DNA from: a virus
IMG/VR virus record: IMGVR_UViG_3300033149_003571
Span: 1-44,911 of that record
DNA length: 44,911 nucleotides
Direction: 5' to 3' (one strand)
The notes beneath the pieces were generated by a model. The model did not search any database. It was not told the DNA's origin and saw only the letters and a list, made by a program, of their open reading frames with translations. Below are positions 11,462-30,162 of the stretch, piece by piece (the stretch's first letter is position 1; each line of letters opens with the position of its first letter). Position numbers and translations under genes: made by a program.

Positions 11462-12223
11462 ATGAAAACAAAACGGGTATTGGTGATAGCAGATACCCAT
11501 ATAGGTAGTCGGTTGGGTCTAACACCCCCCGAATGGATACCTCCCGATACGGCTGTGGTACTAAAGCCGATGTGGGACTGGTATGAGAAAACGATAAAAG
11601 ACATAGGCCCGGTGGATGTGGCCGTCTTAAATGGTGACGGCCTAGACGGAGAAGGCAAAAGAGAAGATATCGAGCAGTTAACGACCGATACGATGAAACA
11701 GGTAGAAATCGCCGAAACCGTGTTTGAAAAAATCAAGACAAACCGCTGGTATCTCACATTTGGTTCGCCTTTTCATTCTGTAGGTTCTTATAATTATGAG
11801 GAACCCTTAGCCGACGCTTTAAACGGATCTATCAAAGACACACAATTATTGCATATAGAAGAATGGAAATTTAATTTTAGACACGTCGTAGGTAATAGCA
11901 CCACTCCCTATGGACAAGGTACGCAGTTATTTAAGGAAGCCGTCCGGGACATGATGAGGGCCACCTTTGAGGATAGGGAGGCGGCAGATTTTACAGTGCG
12001 GAGTCACATTCACTATTTTACCCGCATGGAAAGCGCGAATAAGGTGGCTATCTCCACACCATGTTTCCAGGTGCCCCTAAACGTGTTTGGGCGGAAATGC
12101 AGACCTTTCTATTATGATATAGGCTTGTTATTGTTTGAGGTCTCTAAAGAGAAGGTAGATATTCAGAAGTTTATAATGCCCCTAAGAATTGTAGTCAAGA
12201 GGGAATACGAGAAAGTTATATAG
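11462..12223 (+). CDS. Calcineurin-like metallophosphoesterase
   Basis: A 253-aa protein with metallophosphoesterase signatures: DTHIGS at residues about 10-15, LNGDGLDG near 57-64, GSPFH near 100, and SHIHYF near 181. The usual GNHD is altered to GSPFH, so one metal/catalytic position is non-canonical. SD GGAGG lies 5 bases ahead of the ATG. The substrate is unknown; phage members act on nucleic acids, nucleotides or phosphoproteins. A second, shorter phosphoesterase lies just downstream. Confidence 0.8.
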   Translation: MKTKRVLVIADTHIGSRLGLTPPEWIPPDTAVVLKPMWDWYEKTIKDIGPVDVAVLNGDGLDGEGKREDIEQLTTDTMKQVEIAETVFEKIKTNRWYLTFGSPFHSVGSYNYEEPLADALNGSIKDTQLLHIEEWKFNFRHVVGNSTTPYGQGTQLFKEAVRDMMRATFEDREAADFTVRSHIHYFTRMESANKVAISTPCFQVPLNVFGRKCRPFYYDIGLLLFEVSKEKVDIQKFIMPLRIVVKREYEKVI

Positions 12224-12237
12224 AGGGGGAAACTATC

Positions 12238-12438
12238 ATGGAGGGGCTTGGGAGAAATGGAAGCTCAATCTACAGGGGCGTCTGTTGGCACTATCGCGAT
12301 AAGAAATGGCAGGGCCGAATCTGGGTTGACGGAAGGCAAATATACGTCGGTTATTTTGACCAAGAAGATGATGCCGACCGCGCCTGCCGAGATGCGGAGA
12401 AAAAATATGAAACCAGAGTGTCGCAGCGCGACGCCTAA
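12238..12438 (+). CDS. Stand-alone AP2 DNA-binding domain protein
   Basis: A 66-aa protein that is almost only an AP2 domain: YRGVCWHYRDKKWQGRIW, then YVGYFD and a DADRACRDAEKKY helix. Phage AP2 domains usually sit on HNH homing endonucleases; here there is no nuclease domain. SD AGAGGGGG precedes the ATG. The TAA stop lies within a CGCCTAAC octamer (12432-12439). The 3' end overlaps the next gene by 32 bases in another frame. Confidence 0.8.
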   Translation: MEGLGRNGSSIYRGVCWHYRDKKWQGRIWVDGRQIYVGYFDQEDDADRACRDAEKKYETRVSQRDA

Positions 12439-12904
12439 CTACTTTTTTACAGCCGACGAGCACTATTTTCATCAGAACATTCTTAAATATACTCAAAGAC
12501 CGTTCACTACAGTTGAAGAGATGAACGAAGAATTAATTAGGCGGCATAATGAGGTGGTGGGCAAAAATGATACCGTAATACATGCTGGTGATTTTGCCCT
12601 GGCAGCCAAGAAGAAGGTGGGGGAGATTATCGAGCAGCTTAATGGGTATCATGTGTTTCTACAAGGCTCGCATGACAAATGGGGTACAAACTTACCTTTC
12701 CTCTGGGAGCGGAAGATAGGGGATGTATATGTTGTTGTTTGTCATTATCCGATGTTAAGCTGGCCCCGATCTCATTATGGTAGCATTCCTCCCGATAGGG
12801 TTTTGGACATAGGTGTAGATCCATGGGATTACTACCCGGTTGGTCTTGATGAGATCCGAAGATGGGTAGAAGCATGGGGGAAACATGGACGAGATCAAGG
12901 TTGA
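12407..12904 (+). CDS. Small metallophosphoesterase (YfcE/MJ0936-like)
   Basis: A 165-aa protein from the ATG at 12407; an open frame extends upstream to 12248 but only overprints the AP2 gene. Motifs are FTADEHYFHQNI (metal-binding DxH variant), HAGDFAL (GD), GSHDK in place of GNHD, and CHYPM. Phage homologues are annotated as phosphoesterases or hydrolases of unknown substrate. The start inside the AP2 gene implies translational coupling. The GNHD to GSHD change echoes the altered motif in the upstream phosphoesterase. Confidence 0.8.
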   Translation: MKPECRSATPNYFFTADEHYFHQNILKYTQRPFTTVEEMNEELIRRHNEVVGKNDTVIHAGDFALAAKKKVGEIIEQLNGYHVFLQGSHDKWGTNLPFLWERKIGDVYVVVCHYPMLSWPRSHYGSIPPDRVLDIGVDPWDYYPVGLDEIRRWVEAWGKHGRDQG

Positions 12905-13231: not shown

Positions 13232-13638
13232 GCGCCGGCGGCGCTAAGGTTGTGGGAGAAACGATTACTACTTTGTCGGGTGCAACCCGCAATATCCGCA
13301 ACACTTTCGCAAAGAACCTTCCCCCGGACGAACAAGCAAAGTTTGATATGGCCTTGGCCCAGATGGAGGCCGATATAGCAAAAGCACAAGCAGAAGTAAA
13401 TGCGGCGGCGGCGAGATCGGCACGATTCTTTGTAGCCGGGGCTCGCCCCTTTATTTTGTGGGTGTGCGGAATTGCTCTAGCTTATCATTTTTTGATAGCA
13501 CCCTTGCTATCACAAATAGTGGGCCTAACTATGCCTCCTATAGACATGGCTCCCTTAATGACGCTACTTTTTGGAATGTTAGGCCTGGCTGGTATGAGAA
13601 CATATGAAAAGTTTAAAGGAGTACAGGACAGACACTAA
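13210..13638 (+). CDS. Holin-like protein (3TM-type)
   Basis: A 142-aa protein with a charged amphipathic N-terminal half (AQMEADIAKAQAEV) followed by RPFILWVCGIALAYHFLI, then PLMTLLFGMLGLAGM and a basic tail. This matches the 3TM holin family known from gene-transfer agents and phages (GTA_holin_3TM). It lies at the end of the lysis-type block, before a promoter/terminator unit. Likely role: membrane pore formation at lysis. Confidence 0.75.
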   Translation: MGIFSWLGAGGAKVVGETITTLSGATRNIRNTFAKNLPPDEQAKFDMALAQMEADIAKAQAEVNAAAARSARFFVAGARPFILWVCGIALAYHFLIAPLLSQIVGLTMPPIDMAPLMTLLFGMLGLAGMRTYEKFKGVQDRH

Positions 13639-13657
13639 AAAAACTTAAAGAAACTAC

Positions 13658-13686
13658 TTGACAATTTAATTGTTTTGTGATATGGT
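13658..13686 (+). promoter_or_regulatory. Sigma70-type promoter of a short RNA
   Basis: TTGACA at 13658-13663, a 17-base spacer, TATGGT at 13681-13686. The expected start is near 13693. The first thing downstream is a strong terminator at 13738-13779, so the default product should be about 85 nt unless read-through occurs into the gene at 13791. Confidence 0.7.
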
Positions 13687-13692
13687 TTGAAT

Positions 13693-13779
13693 ATGCAAAT
13701 TGAGCGAATAGCGCAAGTGTTGATGATCACCCTCCTTATACCCGGTGTGTCCCGTTGGGACGCATCGGGTATTTTTATT
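13693..13779 (+). ncRNA. Candidate small RNA or attenuated leader with anti-SD stretch
   Basis: This is bounded by a promoter ending at 13686 and an intrinsic terminator ending at 13779. Before the terminator it contains CCCTCCTT (13730-13737), complementary to Shine-Dalgarno sequences. It could be a trans-acting small RNA, or a leader where terminator read-through (antitermination) controls the early operon. A 32-codon ORF (ATG 13693) overlaps it but runs through the terminator stem and looks incidental. Confidence 0.5.
13738..13779 (+). terminator. Intrinsic terminator
   Basis: A 16-bp stem (13738-13753 with 13757-13772, two G-U pairs), a GTT loop, and a TTTTTATT tail. It is the strongest terminator seen in the window. 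It separates the lysis-type block from the early operon starting at 13791. Confidence 0.9.
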
Positions 13780-13790
13780 ATGAGGTAGCT

Positions 13791-14036
13791 ATGGAAGTAA
13801 GCTTTTCGATTGGTTCTGTTGATGTTGATGGTATTAAGTATCAAGTGGCAGGGAAACTTAACCCTCTAACCGAAGAAGGCTGGCACTTAATAATTTCGAC
13901 AAATGGGGATCAAAACATCGCCGAGCATCTTAAAGATGGCGTAGTGGAAGATATTGTAGATGCAGTATGCAAAACATACAAAAGGCATTATAACTATAAT
14001 TGCGTATACCAAGATCCCATTTGGGAGGAAGTATAG
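13791..14036 (+). CDS. Hypothetical early protein
   Basis: An 81-aa protein; the ATG at 13791 is chosen because GAGG lies 8 bases upstream, whereas the frame open from 13755 lies inside the terminator. The N-terminal half looks beta-rich (VSFSIGSVDVDGIKY). The C-terminal half has an amphipathic helix and ends in Tyr-rich sequence. Family not recognised. It is the first gene of the early operon, directly downstream of the terminator. Confidence 0.6.
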   Translation: MEVSFSIGSVDVDGIKYQVAGKLNPLTEEGWHLIISTNGDQNIAEHLKDGVVEDIVDAVCKTYKRHYNYNCVYQDPIWEEV

Positions 14037-14044
14037 GAGGCAAT

Positions 14045-14284
14045 ATGAATGATCAAGACGGCAACAATCGTATAGGTTCTTTGTGGGTAAAAACGAGCAA
14101 AGGTGGTACCCGGTATATGTCCGGTATCATTAATGTTGGGGGGCAGGAAATACGGGTTGTGGTGTTTAGGAACAAACAAAAAAGAAGTGACAAATCACCC
14201 GATATGAGTGTGTTTATTTCAAAACCCGCTCAGCCCCAAGGACAACCCCGGCAACAGGCACACCAACAAAACGATATATTTTAA
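14045..14284 (+). CDS. DUF736-like small protein
   Basis: A 79-aa protein from the ATG at 14045, SD GGAGG at 14036-14040. The sequence IGSLWVKTSKGGTRYMSG then VVVFRNKQKR resembles the DUF736/OB-like core found in phage and plasmid early genes. A Pro/Gln-rich tail follows (PAQPQGQPRQQAHQQ). Likely a nucleic-acid-associated early protein. Followed by a structured leader ahead of the nuclease gene. Confidence 0.6.
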   Translation: MNDQDGNNRIGSLWVKTSKGGTRYMSGIINVGGQEIRVVVFRNKQKRSDKSPDMSVFISKPAQPQGQPRQQAHQQNDIF

Positions 14285-14288
14285 TTAG

Positions 14289-14361
14289 GCGCCGCGTGTA
14301 TACTTTAATATGTATGAAAAAGTATACATCTACCGTTAAAGAGGCCGGTGGATAGCGGCGC
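14289..14361 (+). promoter_or_regulatory. Three-way-junction RNA element upstream of the nuclease gene
   Basis: Three perfect or near-perfect stems nest: P1 GCGCCGC/GCGGCGC (14289-14295 with 14355-14361), P2 TGTATACTT/AAGTATACA (14297-14305 with 14320-14328), P3 TCTACCG/CGGTGGA (14329-14335 with 14346-14352, one G-U). Junction gaps are 1, 0 and 2 bases. It ends about 8 bases before the SD of the gene at 14379. It could be a regulatory leader, protein-binding site or processing site. It matches no riboswitch consensus I know. P2 arms could also act as a DNA operator. Confidence 0.6.
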
Positions 14362-14378
14362 ACTTTCCAGGGGGTATT

Positions 14379-15140
14379 ATGGATCTGATAGATGAGCTCG
14401 ATAAGGTGTTGCTACAACACGAGAAGCGGGAAAAGACTAACCACTATCCTTCCGAATGTACTGCTTGTGCGAGACAAGCTTGGTACAAGTGGAAGGGCCG
14501 AGAACCTTCGAACCCTATTGAAGCTGGAGCACTTTGGAAAATGGGCATGGGGAATTCTATTCACAAGATCATCCCCGATCTGCTCCGGGGCGCGGGTTAT
14601 GAAGTCGAAGAAGAGGTTGAAGTATTCCTTGAGCATCCAGCTCTGGAATATCCCATCAAGGGACGAATTGATGTGCGATTTAGGCGTGGGGAAGCTCCCT
14701 GGGAGATATTGGAAGTAAAAAGCTCCTACGGGCGGGGAATTCAGAATATTCAGCAAAGCGGGGCGCCTAAAGAAGATCATTATAACCAGCTAGTCCTTTA
14801 TCTTCACATGTCCGATTGCAGGAAAGGATATCTTTTTTATCTTGGCCGTGATAACGCCTACCGTACTATTTTTACAATCCAGAAAAACGACGAGACCGAG
14901 CATAGATTCAGGAATCTGCTTATGAGATTCCAAATTGTAGAGCACTATCTGTCTGACAACGAGCTTCCCCCTAGGGAATATGTAGCATCTATCGTTGATG
15001 GAAAAATCAAGGACAAGTTTCAACACAAGGGCCGTGAATACAAAGGGGATTGGAATTGTAATTACTGCGGCTATCGAGATGAATGTTGGGATGTAAAAAA
15101 CAAGATGGGTAAATGGCATGGTGAGATGCGGATTGTATGA
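14379..15140 (+). CDS. Cas4/RecB-like PD-(D/E)XK nuclease with Fe-S cysteines
   Basis: A 253-aa protein. The nuclease core has GRIDVRFR (about residues 91-98) and ILEVKSS (about 109-115), giving D and ExK. Cys appears in the N-terminal ECTACARQAWY (about 23-33). Three Cys occur in the C-terminal CNYCGYRDECW (about 226-236), the arrangement that binds 4Fe-4S in Cas4/AddB-type nucleases. Likely a 5'-3' exonuclease for phage recombination or replication. SD AGGGGG, preceded by the three-way-junction leader. Confidence 0.85.
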   Translation: MDLIDELDKVLLQHEKREKTNHYPSECTACARQAWYKWKGREPSNPIEAGALWKMGMGNSIHKIIPDLLRGAGYEVEEEVEVFLEHPALEYPIKGRIDVRFRRGEAPWEILEVKSSYGRGIQNIQQSGAPKEDHYNQLVLYLHMSDCRKGYLFYLGRDNAYRTIFTIQKNDETEHRFRNLLMRFQIVEHYLSDNELPPREYVASIVDGKIKDKFQHKGREYKGDWNCNYCGYRDECWDVKNKMGKWHGEMRIV

Positions 15141-16513: not shown

Positions 16514-16631
16514 AATGTACAATCTGATCCGGGGAACAATCAACGAATGTCTTGATGCACAAACAGACATCCAAGACATAATTTTGCAATGGAGGACATT
16601 CAGTGCGGGCAAAATCGTTGAAGAAATCTAA
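16500..16631 (+). CDS. 43-aa hypothetical protein
   Basis: The ATG at 16500 overlaps the end of the previous gene; 43 codons to TAA at 16629. The peptide is helical and acidic (NEMYNLIRGTINECLDAQTD). Its 3' end overlaps the NinG-like gene, whose SD (GGAGG) is within it. Its tight packing supports translation. Function unknown. Confidence 0.45.
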   Translation: MSVNEMYNLIRGTINECLDAQTDIQDIILQWRTFSAGKIVEEI

Positions 16632-16977
16632 AAGAAAGTGTCTAGTGGGAAGGTTAGATAATGTATTTAGCCGGTTTATTAGGCAGCGAGACGAACGGTG
16701 TGTGACCTGTGGATCGAGAGATAACTTGCAGTGTGGACATTTGTTCAGCAGGCAGAGTTACAGTACCCGGTGGGACCCCGATAATGCTTTTGCACAATGC
16801 TCATCATGCAATCTGAAGCATGAATACGATTCCTATCCCCTCACTAACTGGTTTTTGGGGATGTTTGGAAAAACAGCTTATGATCGCCTTCATGCTAAAT
16901 ATAAGAGTCTGCGTAAATTTTCTAACACTGAGCTTGAAGAAATGATCAGAGAATACCAGGAGAAGCTAAATGGCTAA
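16603..16977 (+). CDS. ninG: NinG/Rap-like HNH recombination protein
   Basis: A 124-aa protein starting at GTG 16603 with GGAGG 8 bases upstream. It has CVTCGSRDNLQCGHLFSRQS, then CSSCNLKHEYD, the paired Cys and GH of NinG/Rap proteins from lambdoid phages, which act on branched DNA during recombination. The length is shorter than lambda NinG (about 200 aa) and lacks much of its N-terminal region. Located between the Cas4-like nuclease and the initiator-like gene, consistent with a recombination/replication role. Confidence 0.75.
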   Translation: MRAKSLKKSKRKCLVGRLDNVFSRFIRQRDERCVTCGSRDNLQCGHLFSRQSYSTRWDPDNAFAQCSSCNLKHEYDSYPLTNWFLGMFGKTAYDRLHAKYKSLRKFSNTELEEMIREYQEKLNG

Positions 16978-17353: not shown

Positions 17354-18124
17354 ATGTATAGATACAAGGGCTGCAAAGATCCACCCCAACGCATAACAGG
17401 AGATTCTTACGAGTTGTTCAACTTTGGCAGGTCTCTGCCCCCGACAAAGAACGAAGAACGGTTTCGGGTTAAATGGACAGCGGAAAAAGATAAAGAGCTT
17501 ATTTCTTTGGCGCCTAACAAAAGCTGGAAAGAACTAGCAGATCATTTTATAACAACCTCATCCTCAGTATTGGTTCATTATAGATTATTGGTTAGGCGTG
17601 GCTTAGCCCCTCCTCTAAGCAAGCAGAGGGAATGGACCGAAGAACAAATTGAATATCTGAGGACGCACGTGAATGATCCCTATAAGTCTCTTGTAGCCGC
17701 CCTAGATAAACACGAGACCACTATATGGGCCAAGATCAAAGAATTGGGCCTAACACACACAAAAAAATTACCTACTAATTCTTGGAAACCCGAAGAAGAA
17801 GAATACTTGAAGAAAAACCTCGCTAACAAGGGGATAGAATATTGTGCCGAGCATTTAGGACGTTCTCTGGCAGCGATAAGAGGCAAAGCATATACCCTTG
17901 GTTTTCTTACTTTAAAAGGTATGAAAAATCATACATCTCGAAAAAAGACATCGCCCTGGCACGGGGATTTTGATTTTGTAACAGGTAAAAAGCAACCGGA
18001 ATTTTCGAATCTTCTTGACATTTTATGGACCTGGGTACAAAATGAGAGGGAACAGAACGAGGATGCCTCGCTGATCATTGCGCTTAAAAAAGGTGCTGTT
18101 ATATCAGGAAAGAGGATTGCATAG
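17354..18124 (+). CDS. Multi-repeat SANT/Myb-like DNA-binding protein
   Basis: A 256-aa protein. The N-terminus is the micro-module MYRYKGCKDPPQRITGDSY. Then come three helix-turn-helix units: FRVKWTAEKDKELISLAP (about 36-75), REWTEEQIEYLRTHV (about 90-130), and SWKPEEEEYLKKNLANK (about 140-185) ending ALRGKA-like AAIRGKAYTLGFL. Such tandem units resemble SANT/Myb or GcrA-type domains. Likely a sequence-specific DNA-binding regulator or replication accessory. A paralogue follows at 18126. Confidence 0.7.
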   Translation: MYRYKGCKDPPQRITGDSYELFNFGRSLPPTKNEERFRVKWTAEKDKELISLAPNKSWKELADHFITTSSSVLVHYRLLVRRGLAPPLSKQREWTEEQIEYLRTHVNDPYKSLVAALDKHETTIWAKIKELGLTHTKKLPTNSWKPEEEEYLKKNLANKGIEYCAEHLGRSLAAIRGKAYTLGFLTLKGMKNHTSRKKTSPWHGDFDFVTGKKQPEFSNLLDILWTWVQNEREQNEDASLIIALKKGAVISGKRIA

Positions 18125-18125
18125 A

Positions 18126-18428
18126 ATGTATATGTATGCAGATTGTTATTGGCAATTTCATATGAGAATCACAGGGGATGGGTATACCAAGTGGGCATTT
18201 GCTAGTCTGCCTCCGCCAACAGAGCAAGGAATGGGCTCTGAGATGATCGTGGACTGGACACCTGAAAAAGAGCAGAAGTTAATTGAGCTAGTTGAATCTG
18301 GCATGAATTGGGAGGCTATTGCTGATCTGTATTATTCGACAGGGCCTAATATGAGATTTAAATATCAAACTCTTGTTAAAAACGGAAAGGTTGAGAACCC
18401 GGTAAGAAATTATGGCAAATATATTTGA
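18126..18428 (+). CDS. Single SANT/Myb-like unit protein, paralogue of the upstream gene
   Basis: A 100-aa protein from the ATG at 18126. It starts MYMYADCYWQFHMRITGDGY, matching the N-terminal micro-module of the 17354 protein, then SLPPP and one unit WTPEKEQKLIELVESG. So it is a short paralogue with one DNA-binding unit instead of three. The Cys and Gly-Asp of the module are kept but the DP pair is lost. It overlaps the initiator-like gene by 17 bases. Confidence 0.65.
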   Translation: MYMYADCYWQFHMRITGDGYTKWAFASLPPPTEQGMGSEMIVDWTPEKEQKLIELVESGMNWEAIADLYYSTGPNMRFKYQTLVKNGKVENPVRNYGKYI

Positions 18429-19128
18429 CAAGATCCTTAAACTAGCAAGAAACACCCTATCACGTTCTCAGCGAGAAATGGGGAGTTTGCTCAAGATCAG
18501 CTCTTCCGCTTATGCTAAATGGGAACAGGGGGTATCGGTCCCTGAAATTGAGAGACGAGAGCAGGTTCTTTTTCTTGTCATTCAGGAACTTTGCAAAGTG
18601 TTCAAAGTGTTGAATTTGCACACCGGGGAGCTTATCACTAGGAGTGATGAGAAAGCCAATACTAGAGATAAAGATACCATATCCAATAAGTTTACCAGTG
18701 GGAAACTAGATACTAGTATATATAATAAGGCAAAGGGAAATCTAGATAAGGGAAATCTAGATTTATATATATATCTAGGACTAGGGGAAATAGACAAGAA
18801 ATTGGATACTCTTATTGATAAGGCACAGAAGCCTCGACGGACTCGGAAGAACTCGGAAGTTGGAGATAGTCGAGTTACAGAACTCACACATCATTTTGCA
18901 CAACTACACGAATTTTATCGGAACTTCCCCTTGACAATCAATTATGCGGCTTGGGGTTCAGTGATTAAGCGGCTGCTTAAAACATATAAGCCTAGAGCTA
19001 TTAGGGGGGTGATGAAAGCATTTTTTGAGACTCCGGGGCGGACAAAGACATCAATTTATGACTTTGAGAAATCTTTTGGCAACGTGTATGGATATTTGTA
19101 TGATAAAGCGAACGGGAAAAGAGAATGA
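18412..19128 (+). CDS. Replication-initiator-like protein with N-terminal XRE-type HTH
   Basis: A 238-aa protein. Residues about 15-50 form an XRE-like HTH (SQREMGSLLKISSSAYAKWE). The middle (about 80-145) is low-complexity, Lys/Asp/Asn-rich, and encoded by the AT-rich repeated DNA. The C-terminus (about 160-238) is helical, with YAAWGSVIKRLLKTYKPRAI, reminiscent of phage replisome organiser proteins. As in lambda O, the origin may lie inside the gene. Assignment is by architecture and repeats, not by a diagnostic motif. Confidence 0.6.
   Translation: MANIFDKILKLARNTLSRSQREMGSLLKISSSAYAKWEQGVSVPEIERREQVLFLVIQELCKVFKVLNLHTGELITRSDEKANTRDKDTISNKFTSGKLDTSIYNKAKGNLDKGNLDLYIYLGLGEIDKKLDTLIDKAQKPRRTRKNSEVGDSRVTELTHHFAQLHEFYRNFPLTINYAAWGSVIKRLLKTYKPRAIRGVMKAFFETPGRTKTSIYDFEKSFGNVYGYLYDKANGKRE
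18700..18762 (+). repeat. Iteron-like repeats in AT-rich DNA, candidate origin
   Basis: GGGAAATCTAGAT occurs at 18735-18747 and 18750-18762 (15-bp spacing), with a one-base-shorter copy GGGAAACTAGAT at 18700-18711. A run of alternating TA follows to 18776, then CTAGGACTAGGGGAAA. The block lies within the initiator-like gene, the usual place for initiator binding sites in lambdoid phages. Confidence 0.6.
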
Positions 19129-19424
19129 AAGAAATGATAGACCTTCCCCGGCCTAAAACCAAAAAGCGTTGTGAGATGTGTCGTGCGACATTACCGTGGC
19201 ATTTCCTTGAATGCCAAAACGTCCCCGGGGGTATGGAATTGTATGTTGCCAATCTAGAAGCAGAAGAGCAGCGCCTAAAAGAAAAGACAGTTTCCAGAGA
19301 CCAGGCAGCTAGGATTATGCGAGCGATAATGCTCATATTATCAGCGCCTAACAAAACAATCATGATTCAACGTAAAGAAGCGATTCAAGATGAAATCAAG
19401 CAGCTAAAGGAGCAGGGGAAATGA
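19125..19424 (+). CDS. Hypothetical Cys-containing early protein
   Basis: A 99-aa protein overlapping the initiator stop (ATGA). It has RCEMCRATLPWHFLEC near residue 15, giving a possible metal site, then a long charged helix. Two CGCCTAA-type motifs lie inside (19272 and 19345). Family not recognised. Confidence 0.55.
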   Translation: MKEMIDLPRPKTKKRCEMCRATLPWHFLECQNVPGGMELYVANLEAEEQRLKEKTVSRDQAARIMRAIMLILSAPNKTIMIQRKEAIQDEIKQLKEQGK

Positions 19425-19588
19425 ACCCGGAAGAGATTGAGAGAGAGAAGCGGATTGATGAAATGGCCGAAGCGTTTAAACGTGCTCTGACTAGCTTGGT
19501 TTTTCGGCAAATCAGGCATGGTTGGGAGACTCGATTTGGTGAACATTATTGGGGATTCCGTCCACCTGATGAGGAAGAAAAATCATGA
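19421..19588 (+). CDS. 55-aa hypothetical protein
   Basis: ATG at 19421 with SD AAAGGAGCAGG; 55 codons ending TGA overlapping the next ATG. Helical N-terminus (EEIEREKRIDEMAEAFKRAL), aromatic C-terminus (YWGFRPPDEEEKS). Tight overlap on both sides supports it as a real gene. Function unknown. Confidence 0.5.
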   Translation: MNPEEIEREKRIDEMAEAFKRALTSLVFRQIRHGWETRFGEHYWGFRPPDEEEKS

Positions 19589-19791
19589 CTCCGGGATGTA
19601 TAGGGCAACCGAGGGTGAAAAAGCTCCCCTCGGGATATTGGCATGTGCGATTTGGGCCGCATAGGTTTGCGCAGTGGCGGACTGGAGAATTATGTAGGCC
19701 AGAGAACGTATTTGGAGGCGGCGGGGATAAAGAACAGCTAGCTGATAAGGCAAATAGAGCGGTAGAATCGCAGAAGGAGAAAGAGAGATGA
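19585..19791 (+). CDS. Hypothetical 68-aa protein
   Basis: Coupled to the upstream gene by ATGA. It begins MTPGCIGQPRVKKLPSGYWH and contains HVRFGPHRFAQWRTGELC, a beta-like, aromatic stretch reminiscent of small integrase-type or AP2-type sheets, but too little to assign. The C-terminus is a charged helix. Its TGA overlaps the next ATG. Confidence 0.5.
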   Translation: MTPGCIGQPRVKKLPSGYWHVRFGPHRFAQWRTGELCRPENVFGGGGDKEQLADKANRAVESQKEKER

Positions 19792-20138
19792 ACTTGGAAG
19801 AGATAACTCTGGAAAAGATAAAGGAACGGCTTAAAGGGTCATGGGATTGCTCTGTACCCAATAATGAGGTCGAATGGCTTGTTGCCGAGGTGGAGCGGTT
19901 ACAAAACGCAGCGAGAAAGGACATATCTTATTGTGCAATCCACCACACCTATCCCTGTGAGGGAGAACCTTGCTGGGCCTGTGCTGAACCTTTTATTCAG
20001 AAGGAAGTAGAGCATGCCGAAAAAGCCGAGGCCCGAATCAGAGAGTTAGAAAAAGGGCTGAGAGAGATAGCCGATAATCTTGATACACCAATAGCTTTGG
20101 CAAGAATAGCCCGTGGATTATTGGCGAACAAAATGTGA
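19788..20138 (+). CDS. Coiled-coil protein with Cys cluster
   Basis: A 116-aa protein. Cys-rich centre (SYCAIHHTYPCEGEPCWACAE, residues about 48-66) between two helices; the second (EKAEARIRELEKGLREIADN) is a clear coiled coil. This layout is common among phage hypothetical proteins near the replication region. Possible zinc-binding. No function assigned. Confidence 0.55.
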   Translation: MNLEEITLEKIKERLKGSWDCSVPNNEVEWLVAEVERLQNAARKDISYCAIHHTYPCEGEPCWACAEPFIQKEVEHAEKAEARIRELEKGLREIADNLDTPIALARIARGLLANKM

Positions 20139-20151
20139 TGATGGAGAGAAT

Positions 20152-20331
20152 ATGAAGAAAGGCAAAACTGACAGGGCGATATTGGAAGATGTTTTTAAGG
20201 CTTTTGGTGTTGAGACAAGAAAGGCAGAAGGATTTCTATATGCCGCGGGGCGAAGGTTCGAGTTTGACCCGGAGGGATGTATTGAAAAGATCATTGATTA
20301 TGGAACTTGGAGGGAAGGAGACGCGACATGA
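20152..20331 (+). CDS. Hypothetical 59-aa protein
   Basis: Chosen start ATG 20152, SD GAGAG upstream; the frame is open from 20113 but that overlaps the previous gene end. The sequence FEFDPEGCIEKIIDY suggests a small alpha/beta protein. Its TGA overlaps the ATG of the NeuB-like gene (ACATGA), so it leads the sugar region translationally. Confidence 0.5.
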   Translation: MKKGKTDRAILEDVFKAFGVETRKAEGFLYAAGRRFEFDPEGCIEKIIDYGTWREGDAT

Positions 20332-21200
20332 TCTACAAACCGCCTAAGATAATAGCCGAAGCATGTTGTAATCATGCGGGTAATATTGAGACGGCCAAGA
20401 GAATGATACGCATGGCCGATATTTGCGGGGTGAACGTGGTGAAATTTCAAAAAAGAGATGTTGATGCCCAGGCCCTTATGTACCCTTTTTTATATGACAA
20501 TCCTCATCCACATTCTGAACATTCTTTTGGTAAAACCTACAAAGATCACCGAAAAGCTCTAGAGTTTAGTTCGGCCCAACATGCTGAGCTTAAAAGATAT
20601 GTTGAACATTTTGGAATGGAATACTCATGTTCTGTATGGGATATTATTTCCGCTTTAGATATCATCAAATTACGGCCAAGAATGATCAAGATCCCCTCGG
20701 CTTGTAATACGCATTATGCTATGATGGATGTGTTGAAGAAAAAATACGAGGGGGATATTCATATTTCTTTAGGCATGACGACGCCTAAAGAATTAAGTCA
20801 GATATTACGGTTCTGGAAAAATAATTTTTCTAGAATAATTTTATATCACTGTACTTCTGGATACCCTGTACCTGCCGAAGAGATGCATTTGTTAGAAATA
20901 GAAAAGCTTTTAAAGATTGGTGTTAAAGGGGTAGGATTGTCTAGTCATTATCCGGGATATAGCATGTGTTTAGAAGCTCAAGCGTTAGGCGCCGAATGGT
21001 TTGAAAAGCACATTACCCTGGACAGATTTGCAAGAGGCACGGATCATCAAGCAGCCCTGGAGTTTCTTGATTTACGCAACCTGGTTCGAGATTTAAAAGC
21101 GGGTTATCAAGCGCTTACGCAAAAACCTTCCAGGATATGCGAGATTGAAAAAGAGCAGAGAACAAAACTGAAATATGGTGTTAGCAGGAGCACAAGATAG
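20328..21200 (+). CDS. neuB: NeuB-like nonulosonic acid synthase
   Basis: A 290-aa protein from the ATG at 20328 with AAGGAG upstream. NeuB features: EACCNHAGNIETAKRMI (about 11-27; usual form EIGxNHxG), VVKFQKRD (about 40-47), HCTSGYPVP, GLSSHYPG (usual GxSDHT), and EKHITLDRFARGTDHQA (usual EKHFTLDRxxxGPDHxAS). It would condense phosphoenolpyruvate with an N-acyl sugar to give a nonulosonate. It ends at about the TIM barrel and lacks the C-terminal SAF (antifreeze-like) domain of typical 340-360-aa synthases. The SSHYPG change may alter activity. Confidence 0.85.
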   Translation: MIYKPPKIIAEACCNHAGNIETAKRMIRMADICGVNVVKFQKRDVDAQALMYPFLYDNPHPHSEHSFGKTYKDHRKALEFSSAQHAELKRYVEHFGMEYSCSVWDIISALDIIKLRPRMIKIPSACNTHYAMMDVLKKKYEGDIHISLGMTTPKELSQILRFWKNNFSRIILYHCTSGYPVPAEEMHLLEIEKLLKIGVKGVGLSSHYPGYSMCLEAQALGAEWFEKHITLDRFARGTDHQAALEFLDLRNLVRDLKAGYQALTQKPSRICEIEKEQRTKLKYGVSRSTR

Positions 21201-21251
21201 CCGAACAACGACTATACGATCCTACAGGCGATAGCGGAGATAGAGAGGTAA

Positions 21252-21273
21252 GTAACCTGGGAGGGGAACGATG
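21252..21273 (+). repeat. 22-bp translation-start repeat, copy 1
   Basis: Identical over 22 bases to 21936-21957. The unit includes GGGAGGGG and the ATG start of the following gene. The two copies bracket the damaged PAPS-reductase gene, so start signals have been copied or the gene inserted between them. Confidence 0.85.
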
Positions 21274-21935
21274 ATATCAGAACACATAAAAATTGCAATC
21301 AGACGTCTCCAACAATTTGAACCTCCAGAGGGTTATTATCTTGCATTTTCTGGAGGCAAGGATTCGACCGTTCTGTTGCATCTTGCCAAAGCTTCAGGTG
21401 TTAAATATGACGCACACTATTTGAAAAAGGTTTTCCAAGGCGGCAGGGGCGATGGTGCTGTGAAGAATACAAAGAAGGCGGGGGATCTGGCCGGGTGGTT
21501 TTGACCGGAATTCGAGCGGCGGAGAGTGCGCGACGAGGCAAGCGCCGCATGGTCGAAATTTGCATGAAAGATCCAAGCAAGCGGTTCGTTCATCCTTTGA
21601 TTGATTGGACTGAACTGAACATCTGGTCTTACATTCGCTCGAAAGATATCCCATATTGCGAGTTATATGATCAGGGATTCAAGCGCCTTGGCTGTTTGTT
21701 CTGTCCGATGATCTATTACAAACGGCGACAGGCAGAAGTGCGTAGATATCCACGATATGCATCTGCCTTTCGCAAAGCTTTCCGAAAACTGTATGCCCGA
21801 CGCAAAGAGGCGGGAGCTAAATCTATAGATCGCTGGACAGATGGTGATGCGATGTTCGAGTGGTGGATCGGCGACGGGGGGGATGAACGAGGACAACAAT
21901 TGATGCACTTTGATTCAGATGAGGCGAAGAGATAG
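21271..21935 (+). pseudogene. PAPS reductase-family gene with internal gap and frameshift
   Basis: The first frame (21271-21504) has the PP-loop YYLAFSGGKDSTVLLHLA near residue 22 and then runs into unrelated residues after KYDAHY. A second frame, open from about 21420, reads FEKGFPRRQGRWCCEEYKE, then VLTGIRAAESARRGKRR and CLFCPMIYYKRR: the normal middle and C-terminal parts of phage phosphoadenosine phosphosulfate reductase-like (adenine nucleotide alpha-hydrolase) enzymes. About 35 expected codons are missing at 21415-21425, with a change of frame. Either a real deletion or an assembly error. If translated separately, the second part could start at GTG 21495. Confidence 0.8.
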
Positions 21936-21957
21936 GTAACCTGGGAGGGGAACGATG
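21936..21957 (+). repeat. 22-bp translation-start repeat, copy 2
   Basis: Second copy of the 21252-21273 unit. It provides SD and ATG for the 33-aa micro-module ORF at 21955. Confidence 0.85.
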
Positions 21958-22056
21958 TATTGGTACGAAGGTTGCAGAGATCCTATCCAGAAAATTACCG
22001 GAGACGCATATCGGAAGTACTTCGGGATTGTAAATTATGAAAATATTATTAATTAA
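21955..22056 (+). CDS. 33-aa ORF carrying the MYxYxGCxDP micro-module
   Basis: The ATG at 21955 has a strong GGGAGGGG. The peptide begins MYWYEGCRDPIQKITGDAY, matching the N-termini of the proteins at 17354 and 18126, but stops after about 33 residues. It overlaps the radical SAM gene start by 20 bases. It is either a stand-alone peptide or the remnant of a larger paralogue cut when the radical SAM gene arrived. Confidence 0.55.
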   Translation: MYWYEGCRDPIQKITGDAYRKYFGIVNYENIIN

Positions 22057-23365
22057 CCGTGATTATGACAGTTATGTGGGCTGGTTCCCTACTGGTCTAG
22101 CTTATGTTGCGGCCTCTTTAAGATCCTGGGGTCATGAAGTGATGATATGGGATGCGGGTGTGTATCACTGGGATTATGGATGCCTAACCCAATATTTAAA
22201 CGATACTTATTTTGACATAGTAGCTTTTGGCCTAGTAGGAGGATATTATGAGTATAAAGAAGCTAAGAAACTTGTAAAAGCGATTGGGGAATCAGTTAGG
22301 CGCCGGCATTTCCTGCTTGTGGTGGGAGGACATCTATTTAGCCCCGAACCAGATTGGTTTTTGGAGCATTGGAATATAGATCAAGTAGTTGTCGGTGAAG
22401 CAGAGTTGTGGAACCCAGAAAAATACCCTTCCCCGGGAATCATCAAGGAATCCCCTCAAGAGGATCTTTTGTTTTTGCCCTTCCCCGCCTATGAGCTTTT
22501 CGAGATAAATCATTATGTACTCCACCGTTTTCATGCTCATATGCACCGGCGGGATCGGGCTCTCCCCATAATTAGCAGCCGGGGATGTATCTTTCACTGC
22601 AACTTTTGTTATCGCATGATCGAAGGCCAGCGTCTAAGAGATCCCAAGGATGTAGTGGAAGAGATAACGATGTTGCAAAAAGAGTATGATATCAATTATA
22701 TTTCCTTTGCTGATGAACTTTTTATGGCCTCAAAAACCAGAGCCGTAGAGATGGCTGAAGCATTAATGCCCCTTGGAATTCGCTGGGATTGCATGGGAAG
22801 GTTAAATTATGCTGACCTTCAGGTACTTAAAACCATGAAAAGAGCAGGATGTGTGTTTATCAACTACGGTATTGAGCAGTTTGACAACTGTGCCCTCCGT
22901 GCTATGCACAAAGCATTAACAGAGAATATAATTGTTAAAGGCATAGAAGCTACCTTAGAAGCGGGGATCAGCCCGGGCCTAAACATGATCTATGGCAATG
23001 TAGGAGATTGGCGTGTATCTTTGCAGAAGAGCATTGATTTCTTATTGCGTTATGATGACGGAGTACAGCTTAGGACAATCCGACCGGTTACGCCTTATCC
23101 TGGCTCTGATCTCTACAAGCAGGCTGTTGAAGTGGGTCTTATTAAAGATATCGGAGACTTTTATGAAAACCTACATACTAATTCCGATCTTTTAACAGTT
23201 AATTTCACCCCGTACACGGACGAGGAAGTCTATGAACACATTTGGGCGGCAAATCGCCGCCTAACCGATAATTATTTTGATAAGAAAAAGAAAGAAATGT
23301 ACGAGCAGCTTAATAAGCTTTACGGAAAGAAAGATGCAAGTTTTAGGGGGTTTAGGCCAATATGA
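22037..23365 (+). CDS. B12-binding radical SAM enzyme
   Basis: A 442-aa protein. The N-terminal cobalamin-binding-like Rossmann domain starts MKILLINRDYDSYVGWFPTG. The radical SAM cluster motif is C184-x3-C188-x2-C191 (RGCIFHCNFCYR). ISFADELFM and FINYGIEQFD follow, as in BchE/HpnJ-type enzymes. It lies in the sugar cassette and may make an unusual sugar, lipid or methyl modification. The last 37 codons are duplicated downstream at 23802-23912. The SD is poor; the start is inside the upstream ORF. Confidence 0.85.
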   Translation: MKILLINRDYDSYVGWFPTGLAYVAASLRSWGHEVMIWDAGVYHWDYGCLTQYLNDTYFDIVAFGLVGGYYEYKEAKKLVKAIGESVRRRHFLLVVGGHLFSPEPDWFLEHWNIDQVVVGEAELWNPEKYPSPGIIKESPQEDLLFLPFPAYELFEINHYVLHRFHAHMHRRDRALPIISSRGCIFHCNFCYRMIEGQRLRDPKDVVEEITMLQKEYDINYISFADELFMASKTRAVEMAEALMPLGIRWDCMGRLNYADLQVLKTMKRAGCVFINYGIEQFDNCALRAMHKALTENIIVKGIEATLEAGISPGLNMIYGNVGDWRVSLQKSIDFLLRYDDGVQLRTIRPVTPYPGSDLYKQAVEVGLIKDIGDFYENLHTNSDLLTVNFTPYTDEEVYEHIWAANRRLTDNYFDKKKKEMYEQLNKLYGKKDASFRGFRPI

Positions 23366-23401
23366 AAACCAAAGATTTTAAACATAATCAGGGGAGAAGA
23401 A

Positions 23402-23776
23402 ATGACTAAGAAAACGTATCGGAAACATATCAAAGCGAGACTAGCAGAAGGCAAAAAGAAACTATGCTTGCGGTGGCGTCATAAATTAATGATGCATTTA
23501 GCTTTTCGAATTACTAAATGTATGGGGGTTTCATACGAGGCTAATGCAGTAGTCGATATTGTAACTTGCATGATTTCGTATTTTTTTGCACTTACTAGGC
23601 GTCTATCCGTGGCAGACATGACTATTGTGTGGCTAAAGGATGGGCCGGGTAAAGTATACTGTGTTATGGGTCGGTTTGGTGATAAGAACACAATCTTGAA
23701 TATGCTACATAGTGCTAAAATGATGGTTGAGGGTAGTATACCACTTGTAAAGAAAAGTAAAACCTGGGATGATTAA
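23402..23776 (+). CDS. Hypothetical 124-aa protein
   Basis: SD GGGGAG lies ahead of the ATG at 23402. The N-terminal 35 residues are strongly basic (RKHIKARLAEGKKKLCLRWR), then an alpha/beta region with ADMTIVWLKDGPGKVYCVMG. The family is not recognised. It sits between the radical SAM gene and a copied fragment of that gene's 3' end, so it may have arrived with the duplication. Confidence 0.55.
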   Translation: MTKKTYRKHIKARLAEGKKKLCLRWRHKLMMHLAFRITKCMGVSYEANAVVDIVTCMISYFFALTRRLSVADMTIVWLKDGPGKVYCVMGRFGDKNTILNMLHSAKMMVEGSIPLVKKSKTWDD

Positions 23777-23912
23777 GTACTGCAAAATAGACTCCGACAT
23801 ACGCCGCCTAACCAAAAATTATTTTGATAAGCTAAAAGAAAAAATGGACGAAAGGTTAAAAAAATTGTATGTTGAGAAAGATGCAACCTTTAGGGGATTT
23901 AGGCCCGTATAA
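23769..23912 (+). pseudogene. Duplicated 3' end of the radical SAM gene (47-aa ORF)
   Basis: Bases 23802-23912 (111 nt) align without gaps to 23255-23365, the radical SAM 3' end, including stop codon position. The peptide RRLTKNYFDKLKEKMDERL parallels RRLTDNYFDKKKKEMYEQL. Both copies begin at CGCCGCCTAACC, i.e. at the genome-wide octamer. An ATG at 23769 in frame gives a 47-aa ORF. A TATAAT hexamer lies across its stop (23908-23913). Confidence 0.75.
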
Positions 23913-23960
23913 TGACAAGCAGAACGTTTGCGAATTTGGAAGTTGCATCTATTGAGACCA

Positions 23961-24670
23961 AGGTGCTGTGAGCGAGATTGATGGACAAGCTAGAACACGG
24001 GGATGCTGTCAAGCGGCGAGAGACGGGAATAAGTCCCCGTACGAGTCCGATGCCCGTGGGACACATTCAATTGCGCTCCATCGAGGTTACGTGTTTTGGC
24101 GCTGAAGGGCATGGTGGAGGGAAATGTAGTAGGTGCCGGGAAACCGGGCAGCACCTTTTATATTGCTGGCGCTATCAGAAAATGGAAGTGGTAGGTCGGG
24201 ATAAGTGTCGGATTGATCAACCGGAGGGCTACCCCGATACGCAGGTTCGAGTCCTGCCGCTGGCTATAAACCAGCGCGGCTCAAGGCATTATGGGGCTAA
24301 GGGGTAGAGGGTGAGCGGACTGCACCGATTATTCGGGTGGGGTGATTGCAGAGATTTCTCAGCGGACCGCCACAGGGTTGCCGCCTGTCGCTGGCTGGAG
24401 TGCTAAAGGTTCCTACTTTCTGACAAGTACCCCCGGGTACTTTGTAGTAAGTCTGCAATAGGTTAGTAGGTCAAGGTGCTGCGAGTGAATATTGCGGGTT
24501 GTATGGGGGCACCTATACACTGTGCCAGAAATGGCCTTGTCCCGGATATTGCGCTCCATCAAGGGCCACCTGCCTAGGAAGGGGTAGTTGGTGGACGAGG
24601 GTAATGTAGTAGATGCCGGGGTCACATCCGGGCAGCACCTATAGTCGGTAATCCCTCCTTGAGAGGGATT
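23961..24670 (+). ncRNA. Large structured RNA candidate with two related domains
   Basis: About 710 bases with no convincing ORF. Domain A (23961-24156) and domain B (24474-24640) are each closed by the same 8-bp pair AGGTGCTG/CAGCACCT. They share ATTGCGCTCCATC, AATGTAGTAG and TGCCGGG...CCGGGCAGCACC blocks. The middle part contains a tRNA T-arm look-alike (GCAGG TTCGAGT CCTGC, 24241-24257), then CGCTGG/CCAGCG (24258-24276), ACAGG/CCTGT (24372-24388) and AAGTACC/GGTACTT (24425-24442). It ends in an 8-bp hairpin (24650-24670). It may belong to phage giant RNAs such as GOLLD or ROOL, but I cannot confirm the class. Strand is inferred from neighbours and the TATAAT at 23908. Confidence 0.65.
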
Positions 24671-24697
24671 GACAAATGCTAGTGGGCATGATAGTAT
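24669..24697 (+). promoter_or_regulatory. Sigma70-type promoter ahead of the HNH gene
   Basis: TTGACA at 24669-24674, a 17-base spacer and TAGTAT at 24692-24697. The -35 overlaps the last stem of the structured RNA, so RNA end and promoter are interlocked. The transcript would have a leader of about 90 bases before the ATG at 24795. Confidence 0.6.
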
Positions 24698-24794
24698 ATG
24701 ATCATGATATTCTGCAAAACCTTACAATTAGCAACCCCAATATTCAGTGCCTTTGCGGGCACGCTGGATGGCGGGGTTTTTCTTTGGAGGTTTT

Positions 24795-25289
24795 ATGAAA
24801 ATATATGTTTTGGAAGTTGATAAAAATGAATATAGAGAGAAAAAATTAGCGGTAGAAATAGATGGAAATGATTGTTGGAATGTTATTTCTCATCAACCTA
24901 AAGATACTGGTTATATTGCATTCACAAGAAACGGGAAACATATAAGAATCCATAGATATATCTATGAGAAATATTTTGGTCCAATTCCAAAGGGTCTTTT
25001 CGTATGTCATTCATGTGATAATCGCAAATGTATAAATCCAAAACATTTATGGCTTGGGACCAATCGTGAAAATTTACAAGATATGATAGAAAAAGGCAGA
25101 AATAATAATCAAAAACTATCTGTATTGGGGGAAGATAATAGTCAGGCAAAATTAACCGAGAAAGATATCATAAGTATAAGAAAAGAACGCAAGACGGGAT
25201 TAACGATGAAATCATTGGCACAAAAATATAATGTAAGTGATTCTAATATACATAGAATTATCCACAGGCAATTATGGTCCCATATATAA
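24795..25289 (+). CDS. HNH homing endonuclease with DNA-binding tail
   Basis: A 164-aa protein. The ATG at 24795 is chosen for its GGAGG SD; an upstream frame extension to 24747 lacks one. The HNH core is HRYIYEKYFGPIPKG, then VCHSCDNRKCINPKHLWLGT (HNH_3 type). The C-terminal KLTEKDIISIRKERKTGLT...LAQKYNVSDSNIHRI is an HTH DNA-recognition unit as in SPO1-like endonucleases. Its DNA is more AT-rich than its neighbours, a sign of recent transfer. It sits free-standing right after the structured RNA. Confidence 0.9.
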   Translation: MKIYVLEVDKNEYREKKLAVEIDGNDCWNVISHQPKDTGYIAFTRNGKHIRIHRYIYEKYFGPIPKGLFVCHSCDNRKCINPKHLWLGTNRENLQDMIEKGRNNNQKLSVLGEDNSQAKLTEKDIISIRKERKTGLTMKSLAQKYNVSDSNIHRIIHRQLWSHI

Positions 25290-25358
25290 AAAAATTAGCC
25301 GGAGATTTTCGTGTTACGAGTAGTCCGGCAAAGGTTTGATAACTTATTGGAGGAAAGA

Positions 25359-26702
25359 ATGTCTCAAGAAAAGTTGGAAACCATAGCATTTAACGATTCA
25401 GTTAGAAGATACTGGATACGGGGATGGGTGTATAACATGGTGAAGAACGAACCGCACCTAAAACAACTTTTTAAGGACAAAGAGAAACAAGCCTTAATAG
25501 GTTCGGCAAAAACAGAGAAGAAAAAGCCGGCTCTAGTGTTAGGCGCTGGCCCAAGTCTAGACGAGATTGCTCCCAGGTTGGGAGAGTGGAGGGGGACTAT
25601 ATTTATACCCAATTCCTTGACAAAATGGTGTGATGCTATTGGCCGACATGCTGAGTATATTATAGCGATTGATGCCTCACGAGAAATAGGCGACGATCTC
25701 CAAGGTCCGCATTATCATCGTTCTACTTTGCTCACCCATCCCGCAGTAGACCCACATGTCTTTGAATCATTTGATGGACCGATTAAACTGTTCAGAATGT
25801 TTGAACCCGGGAATGAGATTATTAATATTTTATATGCCACATTATATCCCTGGATCGAGGCATATGTGATTAATTCGGGATGTGTGACAAATGCCATGAT
25901 TTTGATAGCAAGCTTGTTAGGATACAGCCCCCTTTATCTTTTGGGACATGATTTTGCCTATCCCGATGGGGTGATGCGGTTCCAGGATTTTAATTACCGG
26001 GGCAATTTTACGTATCTCCCAAAACAAGTTAAGAAGATGGTGAATCACGAAGATCCTTGGGAAAAACCCCAATTGTTAACAAGCGATGAGGGTTTGTTAA
26101 CTACCCGGACGATGGTCTTCTATAAGCAGACGTTTCTTTGTAATTACAAGCTTACCGGGGCCCAGTTAATCAACATGAGCAAAAAAAGCATTCTAAAGCC
26201 CGAACTTCCCTTTGCCCCGCTTGATGAAGTGTTAAAAGCCCAAACGGATAAAAAATTAGCAGCCAAGTTAAAGAAATTGCACAGAAGCCGAGCAAAGATT
26301 GACGAGGTATGCGACAATTATTTAGTGCCAAGAGGAATATACGCCAAATATCATAAAGAGATAGGTGCGATTTTGGGTATAGAAATTGTAAGTGGTATGC
26401 CCCAAAAACTAGCACAATGGGAGCGAGAGCTTAGAGGGACCGAGGAAGCGATGAAACAGTGGACGCCCCCATCAAAGGAAAAGCCTTATTGGACCAGGGA
26501 AGGCGTGACATTAACAGAGATACCAGATTGGGAGTGGAAAGATGAACCCGATAATAATGACACAGTGCAGGATCAAGAACAGCCGGTTTCCGGGGAAGAT
26601 GTTAAAGAAGGTACACGGAAAGACGTTGCTACAAATCCACCTGGAACGACTCAGGCCCCTGTTGGAGATTCAACCGGAAACAGATCATCCACTGGCAAAT
26701 GA
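25359..26702 (+). CDS. Maf/DUF115-like protein, putative nonulosonate glycosyltransferase
   Basis: 447 aa from the ATG at 25359, SD GGAGGAAAG; an in-frame GTG at 25311 would add 16 residues. The core has PALVLGAGPSLDE (about 58-70), a 6-hydroxymethylpterin pyrophosphokinase/DUF115 Rossmann signature, then VINSGCVTNAMILIASLLGY and LLGHDFAYPDG. DUF115 proteins include Maf flagellin glycosyltransferases that use CMP-nonulosonates. The context of NeuB- and cytidylyltransferase-like genes supports that role. The C-terminal 50 residues are low-complexity (Pro, Gly, Thr, Ser) because they are read over the next gene in another frame. Confidence 0.75.
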   Translation: MSQEKLETIAFNDSVRRYWIRGWVYNMVKNEPHLKQLFKDKEKQALIGSAKTEKKKPALVLGAGPSLDEIAPRLGEWRGTIFIPNSLTKWCDAIGRHAEYIIAIDASREIGDDLQGPHYHRSTLLTHPAVDPHVFESFDGPIKLFRMFEPGNEIINILYATLYPWIEAYVINSGCVTNAMILIASLLGYSPLYLLGHDFAYPDGVMRFQDFNYRGNFTYLPKQVKKMVNHEDPWEKPQLLTSDEGLLTTRTMVFYKQTFLCNYKLTGAQLINMSKKSILKPELPFAPLDEVLKAQTDKKLAAKLKKLHRSRAKIDEVCDNYLVPRGIYAKYHKEIGAILGIEIVSGMPQKLAQWERELRGTEEAMKQWTPPSKEKPYWTREGVTLTEIPDWEWKDEPDNNDTVQDQEQPVSGEDVKEGTRKDVATNPPGTTQAPVGDSTGNRSSTGK

Positions 26703-27318
26703 CCTAATTGTTGCAATTCCCGATTCTCCTGAAGAAGATCGGGTTGAAAAGGAATGCAAACGCTTAAAAGTAAAATGTTTCCGGGGAAGCGAAGACGATG
26801 TTTTGGACAGATATTATCAATGCGCTAAAAAGTATAATGCCAACCCTATTATTCGTTGCACTTCCGATGATCCTTTTGTGGATTGGAAAGTTATCGCTAG
26901 AGCAATTGCCAAATTCAATCGGTTCGAGTGTGACTATGTCACGAACGCCTGGCCCGGAAGAGAAACGTATCCCGAAGGACTCGATGTGCAAATTATAGCT
27001 TTCAAGATGTTGGAACACATGTGGGAACATGCCCGGGAGCCCGCCGAACGAGAACATATTACGCCCTATATGTGGAATCACAAATATGATTTCCATATTC
27101 GACACGAACGTAATCGCCGGGATTATTCGCATTATAGATGGACGGTTGATTATGCTTCTGACATGGCAATGGTATCTGATGTAATGGCCCATTTTGGCAA
27201 TAAGCCGTTTTTGATGGAAGAGCTTATAGGTTATTGGTTTGAGCATCCGGAAAAAGCCAGGACCAGGGCTAACGTAGAACGAAAACAGGGGATCAATAGG
27301 AGTCTAAAAAATGCCTAA
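26542..27318 (+). CDS. SpsF/NeuA-like cytidylyltransferase
   Basis: A 258-aa protein; ATG 26542 with GGGAG upstream. The N-terminal nucleotide-binding motif IIMTQCRIKNSRFPGKMLKK matches the QARxxSSRLPGKxL pattern of CTP-transferase_3 enzymes (SpsF, NeuA, KdsB). CTSDDPFVDWKVI carries the catalytic Asp region. Expected product: a CMP-activated sugar acid. The first 161 bases overlap the upstream gene out of frame, so the signature motif itself is overprinted. Stop overlaps the DegT start. Confidence 0.8.
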   Translation: MNPIIMTQCRIKNSRFPGKMLKKVHGKTLLQIHLERLRPLLEIQPETDHPLANDLIVAIPDSPEEDRVEKECKRLKVKCFRGSEDDVLDRYYQCAKKYNANPIIRCTSDDPFVDWKVIARAIAKFNRFECDYVTNAWPGRETYPEGLDVQIIAFKMLEHMWEHAREPAEREHITPYMWNHKYDFHIRHERNRRDYSHYRWTVDYASDMAMVSDVMAHFGNKPFLMEELIGYWFEHPEKARTRANVERKQGINRSLKNA

Positions 27319-29075: not shown

Positions 29076-29087
29076 AGACAGCACTAT

Positions 29088-29120
29088 AAAAAACCGCCCC
29101 GAAGATCACAGGGCGGTTTT
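29088..29120. terminator. Bidirectional intrinsic terminator
   Basis: Stem AAACCGCCC/GGGCGGTTT with A-runs on the left and a T-run on the right, between the convergent + strand SDR gene and the minus-strand operon. It should stop transcripts from both sides. Confidence 0.9.
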
Positions 29121-29159
29121 GTCAAATTCGGTGCCTAACTATTCTTAATAATTTCTTCT

Positions 29160-29318
29160 CTAGTCATTTTTGTCCCCATGCAATTCTTTTAATATCTCGA
29201 TCATCTGCATTTGGTGTGCTAGATAATCACGCCCATATTTAGGTAGCTTGGCAATAACCTGCACCCACCTTTGGCTCACTTGGGCCACCTGGGCTATTTG
29301 TTTAGTTGTGTATAGCAT
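29160..29318 (-). CDS. 52-aa MerR/XRE-like HTH protein
   Basis: The minus-strand ATG at 29318 overlaps the upstream gene. MLYTTKQIAQVAQVSQRWVQ is a MerR/excisionase-like helix-turn-helix start, followed by an amphipathic helix (AHQMQMIEILKEL). Last gene of the minus-strand operon. A likely small DNA-binding regulator, made from a short ORF easily missed. Confidence 0.6.
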   Translation of the reverse strand: MLYTTKQIAQVAQVSQRWVQVIAKLPKYGRDYLAHQMQMIEILKELHGDKND

Positions 29319-29956: not shown

Positions 29957-29960
29957 ATCT

Positions 29961-30161: not shown

Positions 30162-30162
30162 A

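Follow-up and report, generated by a model that had tools for sequence, protein, structure and literature searches.

When a strong promoter runs into a strong terminator some 50 bases later, does the pair make a small RNA, mark the end of the genes before it, or govern the genes behind it? The question is raised by positions 13658-13790 of the window, by which we mean the whole 44,911-base virus record analysed here. The window carries a 114-bp direct terminal repeat and is therefore probably a complete phage genome. On balance, we lean towards reading the element as a conditional leader (attenuator) that heads the phage early operon.

The locus and its surroundings

The preliminary description had reported a promoter followed by a 16-bp terminator, and every part that it named is present in its place. 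The promoter (TTGACA-17-TATGGT, 13658-13686, + strand) is of the extended -10 type (TGn), a single base separating the TG from the -10 hexamer. It is identical in the close relative described below and scores highest in the 10-18 kb interval; the + strand of the genome carries three promoters of the TTGACA + TGn kind, this one included. The inferred +1 lies seven bases past the -10, at 13693. The intrinsic terminator (13738-13779, + strand) consists of a 16-bp stem, a 3-nt loop and a T-tract; its hairpin (13738-13772, 16 pairs of which 9 are G-C, -27.8 kcal/mol) is followed directly on its 3' side by TTTTATTATG and is the most stable among the T-tailed hairpins found in the genome. The "about 50 bases" of the original account proves to be the distance that separates the hairpin from the -10 hexamer, and a short leader RNA that starts at +1 and includes the whole T-tract would measure about 86 nt (13693-13779, + strand). 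Abutting the hairpin is an anti-Shine-Dalgarno (anti-SD) stretch, CCCTCCTT (13730-13737, + strand), which occurs twice on the + strand (13730 and 24653). This CCTCC-type stretch is, as had been claimed, complementary to GGAGG, a motif common in the genome (60 copies on the + strand, against 24 of CCTCC); 2.4% of shuffled leaders contain CCTCC by itself.

Upstream, the lysis genes finish with a holin gene (phrog_3427, E 5e-25), whose end at 13638 leaves 20 bases to the promoter. Downstream, the next ATG past the hairpin opens the first gene of the operon (13791-14036, 81 aa), with a GAGG Shine-Dalgarno (SD) site at 13782-13785, followed by the second small gene of the cluster (14045-14284). Then come a Cas4-domain exonuclease (14379-15140), a NinG/Rap-like gene (16603-16977), a D5-like regulator (17354-18124) and a helix-turn-helix (HTH) regulator (18412-19128), all of them, like the SD site, on the + strand; judged by these assignments, the set looks much like an early operon. 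The genes for packaging and structure begin near 31 kb, with the terminase small subunit (31330-31953), the terminase large subunit (34248-35866) and the portal (36559-38175) among them, and continue into the lysis genes on the circular map. The window holds no tRNA, no Rfam family at the gathering score (the remaining matches are chance-level only) and no DNA match to annotated phages, and neither the 81-aa protein nor the terminase led to relatives among the GTDB genomes.

Several other features of the window were recorded along the way. A cargo region (19400-30200), absent from the relative, carries NeuB, PAPS-reductase-like pieces, a radical SAM/B12 protein, an MptE-like protein, a cytidylyltransferase, a DegT aminotransferase and a short-chain dehydrogenase, and looks like a set for the synthesis of a sugar of the nonulosonic acid type. 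A second very stable T-tailed hairpin (33870-33916, -26.8 kcal/mol) lies upstream of the terminase large subunit, directly before an AGGAGG and an ATG, with no promoter immediately upstream. The most over-represented 10-mer in the window is GTTAGGCGCC, with 9 copies, or about 170 times the base-composition expectation, and TTAGGCGCC occurs 13 times against 0.2 expected, in both orientations, also within genes, and in the same manner in the relative. These repeats, found across the window (for example at 13228, 14285, 20985, 22296, 31454 and 40914), are candidates for a binding site or for a highly iterated motif of the host. TTAGGCGCC also begins a three-way-junction-like RNA fold between the early genes (14285-14365, -31.3 kcal/mol, z -4.5). 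Five pairs of this fold are changed in the relative, one of them on both sides (C-G to U-A), while three are still paired and one is broken; the relative has an insertion of about 1 kb immediately after it, and positions 14301-14331 are similar to 17908-17938 within the D5-like gene.

Only one close relative was found, a contig of 32,943 bases (IMGVR_UViG_3300033153_005598) that is mostly 94-97% identical over the shared parts and does not contain the 19.4-30.2 kb region. Differences between window and relative (L026/L027) show a strong transition bias, with 745 transitions and 105 transversions. The first gene has five synonymous and no non-synonymous changes and is therefore a real protein gene. 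From 13624 to 13837 there is a single difference, against 3.8% across the surrounding 3.67 kb. Such low divergence would suggest constraint; it may also reflect local exchange, because a 920-bp stretch nearby (11585-12504) is identical in the two. The sole change, T>C at 13750, replaces one U-A pair of the stem by C-A, taking the hairpin from -27.8 to -23.4 kcal/mol.

The same order of promoter and hairpin recurs at 24669-24783, upstream of an HNH endonuclease gene (24795-25289, phrog_6254, E 8e-31). This second unit has a TTGACA-17-TAGTAT promoter with TGn (24669-24697) and a hairpin with T-tract (24733-24783, -22.2 kcal/mol), all on the + strand. Directly upstream of it, about 750 bases (23900-24668) contain no convincing gene; they include a hairpin repeat in two similar copies (GTAGTAGRTGCCGGG...CCGGGCAGCACCT) and a stretch, GGTTCGAGTCC, that is tRNA-like. 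Neither Rfam nor phage DNA gave a match to this segment, which as a whole shows no excess of folding (z -0.6).

In none of 120 dinucleotide shuffles of the genome did a hairpin at -20 kcal/mol or lower fall within 100 nt of a promoter of similar quality, against two such pairs in the real genome (13658 and 24669). The shuffles disregard the intergenic clustering of both promoters and terminators, and a survey of IMG/VR is the fairer control. There, viral contigs supplied 261 extended -10 promoters of comparable quality. Within 110 nt of five of these lay a T-tailed hairpin at -16 kcal/mol or lower, and one of the five was that of the close relative. Leaving the relative aside, about 4 of 260 comparable promoters do so, a base rate of about 1.5% that is an upper estimate because some of the surveyed hairpins sit in coding sequence. 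The pairing of promoter and terminator is far beyond chance and above the base rate in other phages; it was present in none of 18 distant holin loci.

Probable read-through into the early genes

Between 13687 and 15165, the + strand has no further promoter-like site scoring at least 9/12, and 13658-13686 is the sole evident promoter for the genes from 13791 to 15140. Transcription therefore has two routes to the first genes, one starting at this promoter and the other continuing out of the late operon. Both routes meet the terminator, and this is our main argument for read-through that is regulated, or at least limiting. The preliminary description had offered, as one of its alternatives, that passage through the terminator turns on the operon at 13791, and with no other promoter-like site in this interval that alternative has become the best supported one.

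We suggest that host RNA polymerase would initiate at about 13693 and mostly halt at the hairpin after some 86 nt, giving a short RNA, and that the genes from 13791 onward would be transcribed whenever the terminator is passed. In the read-through RNA, pairing of the leader CCUC with the GAGG of the first gene could add a second, weaker lock. The opener might be a ribosome on a leaderless ORF or an antiterminator protein. A conditional leader is favoured by the early-type character of the genes downstream, as assigned from their sequences (Cas4-domain exonuclease, NinG/Rap, D5-like and HTH), by the near-identity of the relative from 13624 to 13837 and by the second unit, which repeats the order ahead of an HNH gene; we infer that termination is efficient and that read-through is regulated. 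The relative's substitution, which weakens the hairpin, argues against, as does the chance that the low divergence comes from local exchange. A competing antiterminator fold would have only weak pairings to draw on (-5 to -9 kcal/mol) before the 3' arm is made. The antiterminator protein envisaged earlier was not recognised among the phage proteins scanned, which include no Q-like PHROG, Q proteins being highly diverse, and by eye no clear -10-like hexamer follows the +1. We set aside an N-type boxB in the 5' part of the leader (UUGAGC-GAAUA-GCGCAA), with neither a boxA nor an N-like protein seen.

It is also conceivable, though we think it somewhat unlikely, that the hairpin is an ordinary boundary that mainly ends late (lysis) transcripts, with the early promoter upstream of it relying on constant, unregulated leak-through. 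The end of the holin gene so close to the promoter fits this explanation, as does the lack of any further strong terminator to separate the lysis genes from the early genes. However, a terminator placed 3' of the early promoter reduces early transcription too, which a terminator set ahead of the promoter, with a spacer between the two, would avoid. Moreover, the unit at 24669 repeats the order at a site that is not the end of a late operon. The terminator probably does stop late transcripts as well, and this is compatible with its role in a conditional leader.

Predicted pairing of the anti-SD stretch in cis and in trans

The preliminary description had proposed that the anti-SD stretch could titrate or repress translation starts. 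In the predicted fold of the short RNA, CCCTCCTT is indeed mostly unpaired, as a trans-acting RNA would require. In the folding model of the read-through RNA, by contrast, its CCUC reaches over the hairpin to a predicted partner in cis, the first gene's GAGG, which is left about 5% unpaired. The second unit is predicted to form a longer helix, CCUU-A-CAA with UUGGAGG, and the SD sites of both units are predicted to be about 95% paired with the leader present. This pairing is equalled by 10% of shuffled leaders for the first unit and 4% for the second, so that the evidence for a cis lock is statistically suggestive. From these folding models it appears more likely that the stretch acts in cis than in trans.

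We consider it quite improbable that the short RNA exposes CCCUCCUU and acts in trans, repressing or titrating the SD sites of phage or host mRNAs. Apart from the unpaired state of the stretch, such a role is favoured by GATCACCCTCCTTA, which is one inserted base away from a common form of the 16S rRNA 3' tail, a form that may not be the host's; GATCACCCTCCTTA is unique in the genome against 0.08 copies expected, a property noticed post hoc. Against this, the best duplex between the 24-nt region and 36 phage start regions reached -18.9 kcal/mol, whereas controls in which CCCTCCTT was kept and the flanks were shuffled averaged -20.2 kcal/mol. The duplexes are thus no better than those of the controls, and therefore nothing appears to be encoded beyond SD pairing; the proposed titration of phage translation starts draws no support from this comparison. 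Moreover, no anti-start codon (CAU, CAC or CAA) lies at SD spacing from the anti-SD, and the same bases have a partner in cis.

The streptococcal csRNAs (PMC3091779) combine an exposed anti-SD with an anti-start codon and with a site for CiaR. The present locus is like them in that a promoter and a terminator would delimit a short RNA with an unpaired anti-SD stretch, and differs in its weak 5' hairpin and in the gene directly downstream. Of the csRNA hallmarks, the CiaR repeats (TTTAAG-N5-TTTAAG) are absent upstream of 13658, and an anti-start codon beside the anti-SD is absent from the leader sequence.

Candidate leaderless ORFs and relation to known switches

Transcription is predicted to start on the A of an ATG in each of the two units, and the ORF that begins there stays open through the hairpin. 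The candidate leaderless ORF of the first unit has 31 codons (13693-13788, + strand) and stops 2 bases before the next ATG; that of the second has 38 codons (24704-24820, + strand). This arrangement raises the possibility, within the conditional-leader reading, that translation is the opener: a leaderless ribosome from the 5' AUG would cross the hairpin and the SD lock and reinitiate at the first gene. None of three other strong core promoters inspected (30962 and 32249 on the + strand, 30884 on the - strand) has an ATG at +1, and in the IMG/VR survey ORFs after a +1 ATG had a median length of 71 codons, compared with 11 codons after a control triplet. Such long ORFs suggest, as a separate matter, that leaderless genes are common in phages.

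When all IMG/VR contigs were scanned for a promoter, an ATG at +1 and a T-tract, 68 stretches were obtained. A hairpin of -16 kcal/mol or lower was present in eight loci, including the window and its relative, and one of the eight had a long real gene. The clearest unrelated case (L054) has a 36-codon ORF across a -30.8 kcal/mol hairpin, and the stop of this ORF overlaps the next start (TAATG), that of a putative gene which, from its sequence, we take to be TnpB-like. This case speaks for an opening by translation. Other observations tell against it: the codon usage of the mini-ORFs falls between coding and non-coding in both units; the only substitution in the first-unit ORF against the close relative, at codon 20, is non-synonymous; among the strong-terminator matches, few in number, the +1 frame is not clearly open more often than the others; and two loci (L330 and L182) keep the order of promoter, terminator and gene and do not have a +1 ORF. 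Taking both sides together, we think translation unlikely to be the opener. As far as these contigs indicate, the promoter-terminator-gene order recurs rarely in phages, and the mini-ORF is optional. At the extended -10 promoters of four loci in other viral contigs (L279, L299, L305 and L316), a 31-codon ORF of leaderless type (MKYLIELLQAAIIALTMFGPFFYYFAFMMK-like) recurs; we set this family aside as a relative, its amino-acid sequence and hairpin being different, and its hairpin is possibly a by-product of coding.

The most elaborate version of the conditional leader would be a double lock, formed by the terminator and by anti-SD pairing over the same hairpin, and opened by a leaderless ribosome that starts at the 5'-terminal AUG and reinitiates at the first gene. 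Such a device would occur twice here and rarely in unrelated phages, before mobile nuclease genes. We put it forward very tentatively and consider it improbable in this complete form.

The nearest working analogue, by comparison of their organization, would be IsrK of the Salmonella prophage Gifsy-1. IsrK is an RNA of about 90 nt whose 3' end is set by a terminator. The mRNA that arises by partial read-through is kept translationally locked by its leader and is unlocked in trans by the short RNA, and a small ORF 3' of the terminator ends beside the next start codon (PMC4825925). The two loci are alike in having a phage-borne promoter followed by a terminator, an RNA of about 90 nt and a small ORF that ends beside the next start. 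The locking of the read-through mRNA by its leader is a likeness as predicted only, given the 10% and 4% of shuffled leaders that match it. Here, in contrast, the candidate ORF begins at +1 and crosses the terminator. The locus gave no sequence or structure match to IsrK, and no Rfam family at the gathering score. In the lambdoid pR'-tR' arrangement, a promoter, a short leader and an intrinsic terminator precede an operon that needs read-through, which is brought about by Q antitermination (PMC6606751); AlpA of Pseudomonas is reported to be a similar case (PMC9371919). The present locus appears to share promoter, short leader, intrinsic terminator and a read-through-dependent operon with pR'-tR'. 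However, Q governs late genes, whereas the genes downstream here are of early type and no Q-like protein was recognised. We treat the IsrK, lambdoid Q and csRNA systems as points of comparison and assign the locus to none of these classes.

A conditional terminator downstream of a promoter is an already known kind of switch. If our reading is right, this phage would set its early expression by a terminator in the leader and not at the promoter alone, and the same design would recur before a homing-type nuclease within the same genome. The first reading would also be corrected, in that an anti-SD stretch next to a terminator can serve as a lock in cis instead of a silencer in trans, and a single leader of about 90 nt would then govern both transcription termination and ribosome access, a compact example of such control.
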